Made by a program: the position numbers and the translations under genes | DNA from: a virus | DNA length: 24,772 bases | Direction: 5' to 3' (one strand) | IMG/VR virus record: IMGVR_UViG_3300022752_000374 | Span: 1 to 24,772 of that record | The notes under the pieces: model-generated | Database searches by the model: none | What the model was told of the DNA's origin: nothing | Seen by the model: the letters and a program-made list of their open reading frames with translations, nothing else | Shown here: positions 157 to 24,312 of the stretch, piece after piece | How the letters are laid out: every line of letters begins with the position of its first letter | How positions within the stretch are numbered: the stretch's first letter is position 1

Positions 157-250
157 TGAATGTAGTTGAAATGGTAAATAAAAACTGGGACTTACACTGC
201 GTCTTTCTAAGCTCCAAGGCTTAACGACTACAGACGCCCAGATTTTCACA

Positions 251-3292: not shown

Positions 3293-3682
3293 TCAGACAG
3301 CCAAAGTTTCTTCTAGTGTGACTTGTGCCATCTTAAGTTCAGCCTTTGGCTTGGCACCAAAAGCATAACTGATGACACGCACATTAAACTCTGGATTCTT
3401 CAACGGAGTTAGTACATCGTCTTTCATATAGAAAGAACGAATGCTTTTGATAGTTCCGCCAATGGTCAGCTCCTGGCCAATGACAAGGTTGCCATTGATA
3501 AATGCAGTCAACAAGCCGTTGCTATTAGTGAACTTCACACGGACATCCGTGTTCTCACTAATCGTATGCATGAGTGTTACTGCCAAGAATTCTTTGCCTT
3601 CATGCACGGCTTTCTCCATGTAAGCAATGCGTCCATGGAAGGTGACCTGCTGGAAGTCAGGGAGCTTCTTAAGATCAGTCAT
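3293..3682 (-). CDS. OB-fold / single-stranded DNA-binding protein candidate
   Basis: 129 residues from the ATG at 3680-3682. The pattern fits an OB fold: strand VTFHGRIAYM, strand EFLAVTLMHTI, strand DVRVKFTNSNGLL, then IGQELTIGGTIKSIRSF, and an edge strand FNVRVISYAFGAKPKAEL. Repeated 'V.G+I' and 'G..I.S.R' with a basic end are typical of phage SSB-like proteins, which coat single-stranded DNA in replication. There is no clear acidic C-terminal tip. The assignment rests on fold reasoning only. The leader has TTAACTCAACTCAGTACTAA, nearly identical to that of the gene at 3968-4225. Confidence 0.6.
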   Translation of the reverse strand: MTDLKKLPDFQQVTFHGRIAYMEKAVHEGKEFLAVTLMHTISENTDVRVKFTNSNGLLTAFINGNLVIGQELTIGGTIKSIRSFYMKDDVLTPLKNPEFNVRVISYAFGAKPKAELKMAQVTLEETLAV

Positions 3683-3815
3683 GGTTAGTACTGAGTTGAG
3701 TTAACGGTCGTAGTACATATGTACCACGGCAGACAGTGAAGTCTGCAGGAAAAGGAGTTATAACTCCCGTTTCAATAAATGAAACGCAACTTATAACTCC
3801 CTTAAGTGCAAACAT
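3675..3815 (-). CDS. Possible 46-aa mini-ORF across a repeated junction
   Basis: The ATG at 3813-3815 directly follows the TAG of the upstream gene. The frame runs through three hairpins and ends inside the start of the SSB-like gene. The peptide begins MFALKGVISC and contains PADFTVC. The shorter mini-ORF at 4244-4297 also begins MFA and contains PADFTVC, so the two junctions share both sequence and frame. Coding status is uncertain. Confidence 0.3.
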   Translation of the reverse strand: MFALKGVISCVSFIETGVITPFPADFTVCRGTYVLRPLTQLSTNHD

Positions 3816-3819
3816 CTAC
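3683..3819 (-). repeat. Junction repeat type 2, copy 1
   Basis: Shares four blocks with 4226-4301: the leader TTAACTCAACTnAGTnCTAA, the 18-bp hairpin GCAGACAGTGAAGTCTGC (3729-3746), CTGCAGG, and GCAAACATCTAC (3808-3819), which includes the upstream stop codon. Between them this copy carries a 12-bp palindrome GTACATATGTAC (3713-3724), a 14-bp palindrome GGAGTTATAACTCC (3754-3767), a GTTTCA/TGAAAC stem (3769-3785) and a second TTATAACTCCC. The flanks are conserved and the middle is variable. Confidence 0.6.
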
Positions 3820-3968: not shown

Positions 3969-4225
3969 TATTCCTCAACGCCATATTCTTGTTCCCACTT
4001 CAAAGCAGCACGGTTGATGTCAACCTTCTTCTGAAGTAGTGTACAGATTGGCAACAGGTCTTCAAACTTTGCCATGCCGTCTTGAAATTGAAAGAACAAT
4101 TCCAGAGCAGCTTGACGCCGCTCTTCAATATTCCAATCAATACAAGGCCGTTTGGACGTTGAATCCCTACGAGCCAACAGTCTGGCATCTTGGGTTAACA
4201 GATGTTCAACTTGTGCAACGTTCAT
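3968..4225 (-). CDS. Hypothetical 85-aa helical protein
   Basis: ATG at 4223-4225; begins MNVAQVEHLLTQDARLLARR and ends LKWEQEYGVEE. Mostly helical, with a Gln/Phe-rich middle (ALELFFQFQDGMAKFEDLLP) and two cysteines. No family recognised. The leader has the TTAACTCAACT box and no Shine-Dalgarno. The stop overlaps the next start. Confidence 0.7.
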   Translation of the reverse strand: MNVAQVEHLLTQDARLLARRDSTSKRPCIDWNIEERRQAALELFFQFQDGMAKFEDLLPICTLLQKKVDINRAALKWEQEYGVEE

Positions 4226-4301
4226 GATTAGAACTAAGTTGAGTTAAGAGCAGACAGTGAAGTCTGCAGGGAGGACCGAAGTCCTCCGGGCAAACATCTA
4301 C
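4226..4301 (-). repeat. Junction repeat type 2, copy 2
   Basis: Same blocks as 3683-3819: TTAACTCAACT leader box, the identical hairpin GCAGACAGTGAAGTCTGC (4250-4267), CTGCAGG, and GCAAACATCTAC (4290-4301) over the upstream TAG. The middle of this copy is a single hairpin GGAGGAC-CGAA-GTCCTCC (4270-4287), different from copy 1 in sequence but also a perfect stem. Confidence 0.6.
4244..4297 (-). CDS. Possible 17-codon mini-ORF MFARRTSVLPADFTVCS
   Basis: Starts directly after the TAG stop of the upstream gene (4298-4300) and ends TAA at 4244-4246, shortly before the ATG at 4225. It shares MFA and PADFTVC with the mini-ORF at 3675-3815. It may be a coupling or leader peptide; no direct evidence of expression. 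Confidence 0.3.
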   Translation of the reverse strand: MFARRTSVLPADFTVCS

Positions 4302-4498
4302 TGACAGTAGTTGTAAAAGTCAACTAATTCAGCATGCAGTTCAGATACTCCTGCTGGTATGCCACCACCAAGAGTACGAACAACTTCGTCATGCCATTCA
4401 CCGTTGTCATCACATGTTTCGTAATGCAACTGAGTTGATTCACCGCCATACCAAACGGTACGAGCGTATAAATCAGCTGGTGGTTGATAGATAAACAT
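4298..4498 (-). CDS. Hypothetical 66-aa protein
   Basis: The ATG at 4496-4498 gives MFIYQPPADLYARTVWYGGE and ends ELVDFYNYCQ. The ATG is preceded by ACTCAAGTCA, like other leftward leaders. The frame is also open to a GTG at 4550-4552 located in the loop of the type 1 junction element; that start would add MQTLVQLLPHNECGLLKS, and the first nine codons match the other two element copies by synonymous changes. Either start may be used. Family not recognised; aromatic-rich and acidic. Confidence 0.6.
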   Translation of the reverse strand: MFIYQPPADLYARTVWYGGESTQLHYETCDDNGEWHDEVVRTLGGGIPAGVSELHAELVDFYNYCQ

Positions 4499-4532
4499 TG
4501 ACTTGAGTAGGCCACACTCATTGTGTGGCAAT

Positions 4533-4576
4533 AACTGGACCAGGGTTTGCACCTGGTCACCCGCTTTGACGGATCA
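4533..4576 (-). repeat. Junction element type 1, copy A
   Basis: Runs from the stop codon of the 4574-4822 gene into the next leader. On the minus strand it has hairpin CCG-loop-CGG (4561-4572), then stem GACCAGG/CCTGGTC (4538-4544 with 4552-4558) around the loop TGCAAAC. The GTG (4550-4552) lies 20 nt after the TGA, at the loop. Copies B (4837-4910) and C (5002-5075) have the same spacing with compensating stem changes. This copy lacks the distal GCGGAGAT block. Confidence 0.65.
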
Positions 4577-4822
4577 GCCGTAGTCCTCGGGAAGCTCAAA
4601 AAGCTCCGCAAGAACTTGGTGCTGCAACGCCGAGTAGCCAGCAACTTTCAGACCCCATGCGGCGATTTGAAGTGCTTGCTCACGGCTAAGAAGCTGCGAG
4701 TGCCCGTCTTCCATCCAGAAACGGATGGTATCGAAGGCTCGTGCACCAAGCTCCTCCCTGGTAGGAAGAAGCAGACCTTCTTGTTGAAGGCCGTTGGTGC
4801 TGGCGGTGTTGAAGACGCTCAT
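4574..4822 (-). CDS. Hypothetical 82-aa protein
   Basis: The ATG at 4820-4822 is preceded by CGGAG at SD distance, one of the few leftward genes with a Shine-Dalgarno. The protein starts MSVFNTASTNGLQQEGLLLP and has a helical core (REELGARAFDTIRFWMEDGH, LLSREQALQIAAWGLKVAGY). No family recognised. The frame beginning at the GTG in element B (4886) overlaps this gene in another frame for much of its length and is probably a decayed or leader frame. Confidence 0.75.
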   Translation of the reverse strand: MSVFNTASTNGLQQEGLLLPTREELGARAFDTIRFWMEDGHSQLLSREQALQIAAWGLKVAGYSALQHQVLAELFELPEDYG

Positions 4823-4836
4823 GGCGCTCCGTAGTG

Positions 4837-4910
4837 TGTGCGGTACCCATCTCCGCTGTGGGTAAAAACTGGGACAGGGTTTGCACCTGCCCGCCCGCTT
4901 TTACGGATCA
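4837..4910 (-). repeat. Junction element type 1, copy B
   Basis: From the stop of the 26-aa gene (4908-4910) to the leader of the 82-aa gene. Hairpin CCG/CGG near 4894-4906. Stem GGGaCAGG (4871-4878) with CCTGCCC (4886-4892), one bulged A, loop TGCAAAC. The GTG at 4884-4886 is 20 nt after the stop. The distal block TGTGCGGTACCCATCTCCGC starts at 4837 and differs from copy C only at third positions of the GTG frame. Confidence 0.7.
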
Positions 4911-4988
4911 GTCATGTACGTAACCAACAACACAGCTGATCACAAAGATCAGAATCAGTGCAGTTGTTTCGTAGTTAGTAAAAGCCAC
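4908..4988 (-). CDS. Tiny single-pass membrane protein (26 aa, or 47 aa with leader)
   Basis: The GTG at 4986-4988 sits five bases after a good Shine-Dalgarno (GGAG, 4995-4998). The peptide is MAFTNYETTALILIFVISCV followed by VGYVHD: nearly all of it is one membrane span. The same frame is open to the GTG at 5049-5051 in element C, which would add MQTLRQQLPPAEIGTAQQ and a short linker, giving 47 residues. The short form has the better ribosome site; the longer is supported by synonymous conservation between element copies. No family identified. Confidence 0.6.
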   Translation of the reverse strand: MAFTNYETTALILIFVISCVVGYVHD

Positions 4989-5001
4989 AGGAATCTCCTG
5001 T

Positions 5002-5075
5002 TGTGCGGTGCCTATCTCCGCTGGAGGCAACTGTTGCCGGAGGGTTTGCACCTCCGGACTCGCTTAAACGAATCA
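5002..5075 (-). repeat. Junction element type 1, copy C
   Basis: From the TGA of the 5073-5381 gene. Hairpin TCG/CGA (copies A and B have CCG/CGG, a compensated change). Stem CCGGAGG (5037-5043) with CCTCCGG (5051-5057), loop TGCAAAC. GTG at 5049-5051, 20 nt after the stop. Distal block with GCGGAGATAGGCACCGCACA, matching copy B except at wobble positions. Confidence 0.7.
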
Positions 5076-5381
5076 ACTTGCAAGTTCTGCTTTACGCATC
5101 TCAAGCAACACATCAACCAATGCCTGGTTGTAGCTTCTGCCTAAATCCTTGTGAGCATGCTCAGCAATAATTTGTGCATCAGCTAAGTCCTTGTTGCTGA
5201 ATGTTGCCATGAACTTAAACAACTGTTCATAAGTAACAGTCTTCGTCTCAGGCTGGATCCAGTCAGCCAACTTACGTCGGCTAACTATCATTGCAGCCTG
5301 AAGCTTCTCCTTGCTTGTGTCCTGCTCAATAGCATTGGCTAATGACAGGAGCTTGTCAGCAAGAAACTTACGCATTGCCAT
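5073..5381 (-). CDS. Hypothetical 102-aa helical protein, first gene of leftward operon
   Basis: Start taken at the ATG at 5379-5381 (MAMRKFLADKLLSLANAIEQ); a longer upstream frame reads poorly. All-helical with charged amphipathic stretches (KLADWIQPETK, SNKDLADAQIIAEHAHKDLG, ALVDVLLEMRKAELAS). No family recognised. The leader contains CACACTCAACCACAGG. It is the most upstream gene of the leftward block, so the early promoter should lie between here and about 5.8 kb. Confidence 0.75.
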   Translation of the reverse strand: MAMRKFLADKLLSLANAIEQDTSKEKLQAAMIVSRRKLADWIQPETKTVTYEQLFKFMATFSNKDLADAQIIAEHAHKDLGRSYNQALVDVLLEMRKAELAS

Positions 5382-22322: not shown

Positions 22323-24312
22323 GTGTTTATTGATAGCTAGTTCAGATCCTGGTAGGTGTGTCCTTTTAGGATTTGGTAAATAGCTCCGTGATTACAGTTA
22401 AATTTTTCGGCAATCTTTCTATATGAAAGTCCAGCCTCTTTCAAAGATTTAATTTGCATCACGTCTTCCGAAGAAAACTTTCTCAAAGACTTCTTCGGCT
22501 TTCCTTTACTGGCAAAACCATTATTTTGGTAGCAACCAGATTCCCAAGCCCTCGTTAAATTCTCTTGTTTGGTAACAATTTCTAGATTCTCAAGTTGATT
22601 ATTCCGTTTGTTTTTATCTAAGTGATTTACCTGAAGAGAAAAGTTATGACTGCCATGGGACCTTGGATCTAAACCAAGAAAGGCAATTGCCATTAACACG
22701 TGTAAATGAAAACGTTTCTTTCTTCCATTTACAAGAACTGAAACTCTGTCATATGCACTGGTCGAACTAATAGGAAGTTCTTCAAGTTCTTCTTGATCCT
22801 GTTCATTAAGTTTTTTCTTAAAAGCTCGACCGTCTTCTGTTAAGTAAAGGTTACCAAACCCAGGTACAAGTTTTGGTTCCATGTTGTTTATCAACATTTT
22901 TCCAAAGCATAGCATGCCTCAACTGAACGCTCAACGTTGTCACCTCACCGAGCAATCGATGAGTGCAAACCGGATGAATTCAGGGAAGCCCTAACGTAAA
23001 GCCGAGGGTAATCCTGAGCCAAGCCAATCAAGATCGTGATTGGAAGGTGCAGAGACTACTGGGGGTAACACGCACTTGTTACGTAATACCAGATTTAGCG
23101 TCCGGCATCCCACAGGGATGAAGAGATAGTCCACCCCTCTAAGAAACTAGAGACCAGGAGAACGATTTTCCAAAAATCTTGGGTGCGGAACTCTATCGTC
23201 CTCACCCCGCCTACATTGCCGAGATGGCTGTGGAGCCCGTGGTTGTCCACGACTTCACCCGTCAACCCGGTCAAACCGTGCAGCTCGACCGCTATAAGTT
23301 CTGGGGAACCCCTGGCACGAAGGATAGCCGCGAGCGTATTGCCGACCAAACCATTGGTACTGCTAACAGCCGCAACATCACCAAGGAGAAAGTCCTGGTG
23401 GTGCTTAAGGAATACACTGGTCCTGCCGATCCGGGCGATCCGACTCAGCCTTCTACCTTCAAGATTGCTCGTGAAACCCTGATTACCGCCCAGCGTCTGC
23501 TGCTGGACACCGGTAACCTGAACATGTTCCACCAGTCCATCGGCAGCCTCACCCTGCTGGATGACTACCGTCGTTGGCGCGACCGCGTCTTCATTGACGA
23601 ACTGTCCAAAGCTGAAGCCAACGGCCAAGCTTCTACCACCCAGGGCGGTTACTACTTCGCTGGTAACAAAGCCAAAGATTCCTCTGGCCGTGTTTCCTAC
23701 ACTGCCACTGAATATGGCGCGCAAGTTCAACAGTTCCAAGTCCGTACTGACTTGCTGAACGTTGTTAAAGACCTGCGTAAGCGCAACGTGCCGACCTATT
23801 CCGATGGTCTGTATCGTTGCATCTGCGATCCTACTTTCATGCTGCACCTGCGGCGTGATCCTGACTTCCGTGAGATCGCTCGTTACGCTGGCAATCCTGG
23901 TCAGGGGATGTACATGGGCAACCCTGCGATGCCCAACAACTCCAGCTTCTACATGGGTCCCCAAGCTGGCCAAGGTTATTTCCTGGCTGGTGAACCTGTC
24001 ATGCCGACCGGCGTGCAGTTTGAAGGTGTGAAGTTCTTCGAGTCGACCAACTTCCCCACCAAGACCCTGAGTGCATCTTTCGACGGTGGTTCCAACTATT
24101 CGACTCAAGAAGTTGCCCAAGGTTACTTCTTTGGTCCTCAAGCCATCGGCGTCGGTATTGGTGGTCCTAACGCCCAAGTGCTGATCAACAATAACGATGA
24201 CTTCAGCCGCTTTATCATTCTGATTTGGCAGCTGTACGCTGGTTTTGAAATCCTGAACAAAGATTTCGTCACCACCGGTTTCAGCTTCATTCAAGACGAC
24301 GGTATCGTTTGA
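22323..24312 (+). CDS. Major capsid protein, split by a group I intron
   Basis: Proposed exon 1 is GTG TTT ATT GAT (22323-22334), preceded by GGAGG ten bases upstream; exon 2 is 23161-24312. Joined product is about 387 aa and begins MFIDNDFPKILGAELYRPHP. The protein has GRYKFW-type LDRYKFWGTPGTKDSRERIA, LLDDYRRWRDRVFIDELSK, and coat-like ending LIWQLYAGFEILNKDFVTTG. It is the abundant head shell protein by position (after scaffold) and composition; codons are strongly C-ending. Without splicing, the frame ends after five codons (MFIDS, TAG). The exact splice bases are inferred. Confidence 0.85.
22337..22882 (-). CDS. HNH homing endonuclease, antisense inside the intron
   Basis: Start taken as the ATG at 22880-22882 (MEPKLVPGFGNLYLTEDGRA), with alternative in-frame ATGs at 22897 and 22915; about 181 aa. 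The nuclease core is FHLHVLMAIAFLG (His59, His61), VNHLDKNKRNN (Asn86, His87, Asp89) and LENLEIVTKQENLTRAW, the HNH_3 arrangement. The C-terminal helix-turn-helix is SSEDVMQIKSLKEAGLSYRK with IYQILKGHTYQDL (about 138-180). It makes a cut at intronless alleles so that the intron copies in. Stop is three bases inside the intron. Opposite orientation to its host gene is unusual. Confidence 0.93.
   Translation of the reverse strand: MEPKLVPGFGNLYLTEDGRAFKKKLNEQDQEELEELPISSTSAYDRVSVLVNGRKKRFHLHVLMAIAFLGLDPRSHGSHNFSLQVNHLDKNKRNNQLENLEIVTKQENLTRAWESGCYQNNGFASKGKPKKSLRKFSSEDVMQIKSLKEAGLSYRKIAEKFNCNHGAIYQILKGHTYQDLN
22906..22934 (-). promoter_or_regulatory. Candidate promoter of the antisense HNH gene
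   Basis: On the minus strand TTGAGC (22929-22934), a 17-bp spacer, then TATGCT (22906-22911) with an upstream TGC. It overlaps the candidate P2 strand CTGAAC (22923-22928). Only fair matches to consensus, but spacing and place are right. Confidence 0.4.

Follow-up and report, generated by a model that had tools for sequence, protein, structure and literature searches.

A 49-nt structured RNA element that holds the stop codon and last codon of a gene within a conserved helix recurs between small genes in a widespread lineage of dsDNA phages of freshwater cyanobacteria. In the DNA analysed here (the window, a 24,772-nt virus record taken at its full length), the first three genes of a leftward cluster are each followed by one copy. 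Base-pairing patterns across the family indicate that every copy acts in cis as a structured RNA in a leftward phage mRNA, with the upstream stop codon in its closing helix. Judged by Rfam and the searchable open literature, a scope to which the original description of phage S-EIV1 does not belong, this strongly covarying, uncatalogued family is apparently new. Cis-acting structured phage RNAs and tRNA-like mimics are already known as kinds; we know of no precedent for an architecture with an embedded stop codon.

Genomic setting and the three copies in the window

The window is kin to Synechococcus phage S-EIV1 (KJ410740), with ~76% DNA identity over the structural genes, and S-EIV1 was the sole convincing match in blastn comparison with phages. 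Terminase, portal-like and capsid genes occupy the plus strand, and many small genes the minus strand. A group I intron at 22910-23153 (+) (RF00028, 92.5 bits) adjoins an HNH endonuclease gene at 22337-22915 (-) (HNH_3) and lies directly 5' of the capsid gene at 23179; the capsid match is in two pieces in several relatives. The large terminase of S-EIV1 (L004 16439-18979 (+)) carries an in-frame insertion matching the Intein_splicing domain (PF14890), which is absent from the terminase of the window, and record G002 has the same enlarged frame. A tRNA-Leu(TAA) gene occurs in loci L019, L024, L028, L036, L103, L122, L126, L143 and L157; the window and the examined S-EIV1 stretch gave none.

The element copies and the genes around them are as follows, in the direction of transcription.

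5073-5381 (-): upstream gene 1, no family found in PHROGs; its stop codon lies within copy C
5031-5079 (-): copy C, three-way junction; P1 (4 bp) 5074-5077/5033-5036, P2 5069-5072/5059-5062, P3 5051-5057/5037-5043, loop 5044-5050
5073-5075 (-): UGA of copy C, ending the gene at 5073-5381
5002-5032 (-): 3' module of copy C, S1/S2 type, UGCCU/AGGCA and GCGG/CCGC
~4908-4981 (-): small gene 2, between copies C and B; GTG start behind AGGAG likely; stop codon within copy B
4866-4914 (-): copy B, three-way junction; P1 4909-4913/4867-4871, P2 4904-4907/4894-4897, P3 4886-4892/4872-4878, loop 4879-4885
4908-4910 (-): UGA of copy B, ending the small gene at ~4908-4981
4837-4867 (-): 3' module of copy B, S1/S2 type, UACCC/GGGUA and GCGG/CCGC around GAGAU
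4574-4822 (-): small gene 3, 82 aa; stop codon within copy A
4532-4580 (-): copy A, three-way junction; P1 4575-4579/4533-4537, P2 4570-4573/4560-4563, P3 4552-4558/4538-4544
4574-4576 (-): UGA of copy A, ending the gene at 4574-4822
4545-4551 (-): T-loop-like UGCAAAC of copy A; unpaired A at 4532, then UU
4511-4531 (-): 3' module of copy A, UU linker and simple hairpin GCCACAC-AAUGA-GUGUGGC (4523-4529/4511-4517)
4298-4498 (-): small gene 4, downstream of copy A; ATG at 4498 the likely start

A sequence-only reading of the window had described three copies of a stop-to-start element, each with two hairpins. All three are present on the minus strand, and the small hairpins (CCG/CGG, CCG/CGG and TCG/CGA), the heptaloop TGCAAAC and the compensating stem changes are as it described. 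Its spacing of 20 nt from stop codon to GTG is actually 21 nt, and the mismatched "a" that it marked in copy B turns out to be a G.U wobble in gene-strand RNA (GGGCAGG/CCTGUCC), which tells the sense strand. The two hairpins exist, but as arms of a three-way junction whose closing helix, P1, had been overlooked: a third helix encloses both (CGGCTG/CAGTTA, TGACTG/CAGTTT and AAGTTG/CAACAG in copies A, B and C). With cmsearch, exactly three copies were found in the window (E = 1e-25, 4e-23 and 5e-22, all three being within the training set of the covariance model). These values, together with occurrence on more than 100 independent contigs, place the element far beyond chance.

Other repeats lie in the same cluster. 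A second RNA-like element, (C)CTGGGC...GTAAGTCCCAGG, stands between genes at window 178-247 (-) and recurs at L005 40720-40785 (-) and 41435-41480 (-), L145 4315 and L112 5618; Rfam gave nothing relevant for the window copy. The next two intergenic regions downstream, window 4222-4300 (-) and 3680-3816 (-), carry a different repeated element made of a hairpin, GCAGACTTCACTGTCTGC, and a leader, TTAACTCAACTNAGTNCTAANCATG.

Architecture and covariation

Alignment of 125 distinct copies defines a 49-nt three-way junction plus a 3' module. P1 (5 bp) is formed by the upstream gene's last codon and the UG of the stop codon, paired with the five bases directly 3' of P3. P2 is UCCG/CGGG with the loop UNNAAG, and P3 has 7 bp and a heptaloop. 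On the 3' side the strands of P1 and P3 run on directly, without an intervening unpaired base; on the 5' side P2 separates them. Pairs are formed in 98.5% of cells, and double changes occur in 11 of the 16 pairs; double-change cells number 357 against 99.6 in shuffles. Cells here count sequences, which are not independent events, and a pattern search supplied the loci. The signal is lost when partners are slid, and RNAalifold, unprompted, returned the same junction. Both loops contain numerous invariant unpaired bases. The earlier proposal that RNA shape is under selection is thus strongly supported, for a structure larger than the one proposed.

P1 is convincing by itself. The alignment contains AACUG/CAGUU, GACUG/CAGUC, AGCUG/CAGCU, AAGUG/CACUU, UGCUG/CAGCA and GAUUG/CAAUC; last-codon positions pair in 349 of 375 cases, against 304 +/- 3.9 when shuffled (shuffle maximum 324), and five of the seven UAA copies have the partner UA opposite. 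The outermost P1 pair is formed in ~77-81% of copies. Over P1 and P3 of all copies, 90 G.U combinations were counted against 6 A.C, so that gene-strand RNA is what is selected. A further candidate pairing between the P3 loop and the linker (GCAA/UUGC) was dropped when no covariation was seen.

A second subtype (subtype II, 28 copies) pairs CUGA with UCAG; its P1 is displaced by one base with respect to the stop codon, and where P3 meets P1 there is usually a U.U.

Distribution

Core patterns matched at least 119 stretches in IMG/VR, a second anchor in which the stop codon was not required matched 76, and an anchor leaving the P3 stem and loop free matched 98. The collection comprises 169 distinct copies on more than 100 IMG/VR contigs, plus subtype II. 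A covariance model, the kind of check suggested by the sequence-only reading, found three copies in the window and two in S-EIV1, a phage of Synechococcus sp. PCCC-A2c, where the linker behind P1 lies at about 43450 and 43745 of the record (minus strand). Forty carrier records were tested: a relative of the window capsid protein is encoded in 28 and one of the window terminase in 29; the records lacking such a relative are mostly short fragments. Twenty long records have one to three matches each; the matches whose positions were compared are on the strand opposite to the terminase gene, ~10-14 kb away from it. When 84,980 bacterial and archaeal genomes were scanned with an exact pattern, six scattered matches turned up in unrelated phyla, none cyanobacterial, which by a rough estimate is about chance level.

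Rfam 15 returned nothing relevant in gathering-score scans of the window and four loci or in a permissive scan of the region, so the claim that no element of this form has been described holds against that catalogue. No covariance model of a known riboswitch or self-cleaving ribozyme in Rfam 15 matched. Invariant unpaired bases in both loops would suit a ligand-binding riboswitch or an aptamer for a trans-acting factor. We regard this as quite unlikely, given that the element precedes many unrelated small unknown genes, one to three times in a row, and is linked to the stop codon upstream and not to an expression platform.

The neighbouring genes vary greatly: 140 junctions comprise 104 distinct pairs of upstream and downstream families, as would be expected if the element were a recombination boundary, in the form of a DNA hairpin or a patch of homology through which small genes are exchanged as cassettes. 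Nearby element-free junctions are equally variable (0.23 vs 0.24), however, and element-driven shuffling was rejected on that ground; G.U-rich pairing in one strand sense likewise points to RNA. A role of this kind is very unlikely, and sequence identity may produce shuffling as a side effect.

The embedded stop codon

The stop codon occupies a fixed place in 169 of 169 copies (162 UGA, 7 UAA and no UAG), a count that allows a register shift of 1-2 nt in variants. Some of the collection scans had TGA in the pattern; the second-anchor scan (76 stretches) did not. In 149 of the 169 copies this codon closes an in-frame ORF that is 30 codons or longer; among control frames the figure is 54 of 338. 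In subtype II the UGA is in frame with the upstream gene in 27 of 28. The ~20 exceptions, one S-EIV1 copy among them, mostly have a short open stretch before the element. Stop-codon readthrough was considered and rejected: the frame behind the stop reads TAA whenever the second N of the P2 loop is T (28 of 169), and the sequence there tracks RNA pairing, not coding.

The GTG frame

The GTG at the P3 loop had been proposed to open a short peptide, selected along with the RNA. Its reading MQTLxQxLP is correct for all three window copies, and across the family stops within 15 codons are somewhat rarer in this frame (15 of 169) than in the other two (41 and 43), a mild, weak deficit. The wider collection nevertheless points away from a peptide. 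The frame stops within 10 codons in 11 of 169 copies (e.g. VQTLRQ* and VQTLV*), and downstream of the stem the first and second codon positions are as variable as the third (TTA to TCA, CTA, CAC, CAA and TAA), so that neither an open frame nor a synonymous bias is seen; the synonymous differences among the three window copies are a small-sample effect. GTG CAA ACC is near-invariant in its third positions too, which places the constraint on nucleotides. With the GTG at the stem-loop boundary, no Shine-Dalgarno sequence could serve it, and downstream genes stand in all three frames relative to it (69/48/47). Translation of a conserved peptide from this GTG together with the RNA structure is hardly credible; the conserved reading is a by-product of RNA constraint.

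Such constraint can mimic a conserved peptide and mislead annotation. In S-EIV1, the annotated ATG (43732) of gene AHV82201 (L005 43496-43732 (-)) falls inside the 3' module of an element, and a GTG behind AGGAG further downstream is the likelier start.

A T-loop and a 12-bp arm

The consensus of the tRNA T-loop is U54-U55-C56-R57-A58-N59-Y60. The P3 loop of the element matches it with a G at position 55. When the collection was scanned with the loop left free, 94 of 94 distinct copies fit UGCRANY, all of one length where 11 lengths were allowed, and the only variants were UGCAAAC, UGCAAUC, UGCGAAC, UGCAAAU and UGCGAUC. All 207 heptaloops located from a P2 anchor within the fetched loci fit U-G-C-R-A-N-Y as well, and the U55 variant had no match in IMG/VR.

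The arm beneath this loop is also of tRNA dimensions: P3 (7) and P1 (5) give 12 positions without a spacer (11 pairs in copy C), as do the acceptor (7) and T stem (5) of tRNA. A base, mostly A, and then UU follow the arm; an N-U is found 12 nt beyond the loop in 209 of 216 cases, and subtype II keeps the 12 positions and the N-UU despite its shifted P1. Features expected of an acceptor/T half are thus present, namely the gapless 12-bp arm and N-UU in nearly all copies and the T-loop sequence, and P1 and P3 are predicted to stack coaxially. ARAGORN called a malformed "tRNA-???" over one subtype II copy (L039 13268-13362), taking it as a tRNA 3' half that ends at the predicted discriminator base; it called no tRNA in the window, and the Rfam tRNA model (RF00005) did not match the element. 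The likeness to tRNA is partial. The D-loop GG is absent from the P2 loop UNNAAG, so the canonical elbow is lacking, as are U55 and CCA, and the insertion point lies at 5 rather than 7 bp.

The 3' module and the downstream gene

Beyond the linker, 87 of 169 copies carry a simple hairpin and 81 a two-helix module, in which S1 (UGCCC/GGGCA) and S2 (GCGG/CCGC, GUGG/CCAC, GCAG/CUGC or AGGG/CCCU) are arranged around GAGAU. Both helices covary, with 99.8% of cells paired. In the window, copies B and C have the two-helix form and copy A the hairpin. S1 and S2 could with equal possibility form a true pseudoknot or mutually exclusive hairpins; a coaxial H-type knot looks strained, because no spacer separates the two 3' strands. 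Only two to three U stand between P1 and the next helix, which does not make an intrinsic terminator. Start sites behind the two-helix module often consist of a small inverted repeat containing the Shine-Dalgarno sequence and start codon (CAACAGGAGATTCCTGTG, CACGGAGAACACCGTG, CATGGAGAGATCCATG); such repeats, found at window 4977-5000 (-) and at many loci, possibly hide the start.

The class of 3' module tracks the downstream gene (z 9.5) above the upstream gene (z 3.7), and Shine-Dalgarno use differs sharply between the classes (37 of 73 vs 1 of 87). These associations and the stop codon embedded in every copy, usually in frame with the upstream gene, fit translational control. A terminating ribosome would melt P1 and P2, after which the junction, as it refolds, would set re-initiation downstream together with the 3' module (with two alternative hairpins in half the copies), or a phage or host protein would bind the T-loop junction as an operator. 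Such control is rather doubtful as the element's function, for the next start codon lies at widely varying distances, a Shine-Dalgarno sequence is missing from some starts, ~20 copies end no gene, and downstream genes occur in every frame.

Proposed mechanism

Our tentative preference, held at less than even probability, is that the element serves as an intercistronic processing signal with tRNA-type recognition. The more specific proposal, that it is a tRNA-half mimic used as mRNA punctuation, with host tRNA 3'-processing enzymes cutting just after each small gene, is possible but on balance doubtful. With the last ribosome gone from the stop codon, P1 and P3 would stack into a 12-bp arm capped by the T-loop, mimicking the acceptor/T half of tRNA. 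The polycistronic mRNA would then be cut by a host endonuclease able to measure the arm, RNase Z being the likeliest, or by another one acting in the A-UU linker. The upstream message would keep its stop codon and gain a folded 3' end, and the downstream message would start with a protective hairpin. The element would thereby act as a punctuation mark for the operon's first small genes.

RNase Z leads the candidates because its cut falls behind the discriminator base, because it recognises the elbow (PMC10100781, PMC4810234), and because a U within 2 nt of the discriminator stimulates it ~200-fold (PMC10100781). The action of RNase P on phage M3 RNA, phage C4 RNA and T4 gene 32 mRNA (PMC11143913) establishes that tRNA enzymes do act on phage transcripts; RNase P is less attractive here because its cut would fall 5' of the stop codon.

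The 12-bp total of the two helices could be coincidental, and RNase E cutting in the A-UU linker and translational coupling are close rivals. In a general stability and processing role, the junction would block 3'-5' exonucleases on the upstream message, RNase E would cut the single-stranded A-UU linker and the 3' hairpin would protect the new 5' end, the T-loop resemblance reflecting compact folding only. A short, nearly invariant linker (AUU/CUU) between two stable folds, and an element that begins exactly at the stop codon, are consistent with this role, which is conceivable if somewhat improbable; it leaves unexplained the invariant UGCRANY rule and the fixed 12-nt spacing in both subtypes.

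Comparison with known systems

The PeSLs of T4-type phages pair a promoter with a terminator-like hairpin. Their cassettes share with the element the placement of repeated stem-loops between small, shuffled phage genes, whereas the element folds into a three-way junction, embeds a stop codon and lacks a T-run. The glnA and Downstream-peptide (glutamine) riboswitch motifs (PMC2864571) share its cyanobacterial setting and a small unknown ORF downstream, but the element differs from them in sequence and structure, has no Rfam match and is anchored to the upstream stop codon. The L17 downstream element (PMC2864571) is likewise a structured RNA directly 3' of a stop codon, differing in structure, host and genes.

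A further likeness is to mascRNA/menRNA, the TYMV TLS and the phage M3 and C4 RNAs, in which, as is predicted for the element, a 12-bp coaxial acceptor/T-type arm with a T-loop is found in a longer transcript. Those RNAs are processed by tRNA enzymes, while the element is only a possible substrate of RNase P or RNase Z. In place of the D and anticodon arms it has one inserted hairpin, within 49 nt; its acceptor-like helix includes an mRNA stop codon, and it repeats at gene junctions. If the tRNA-half reading is true, it would amount to tRNA punctuation of phage mRNAs by host enzymes.
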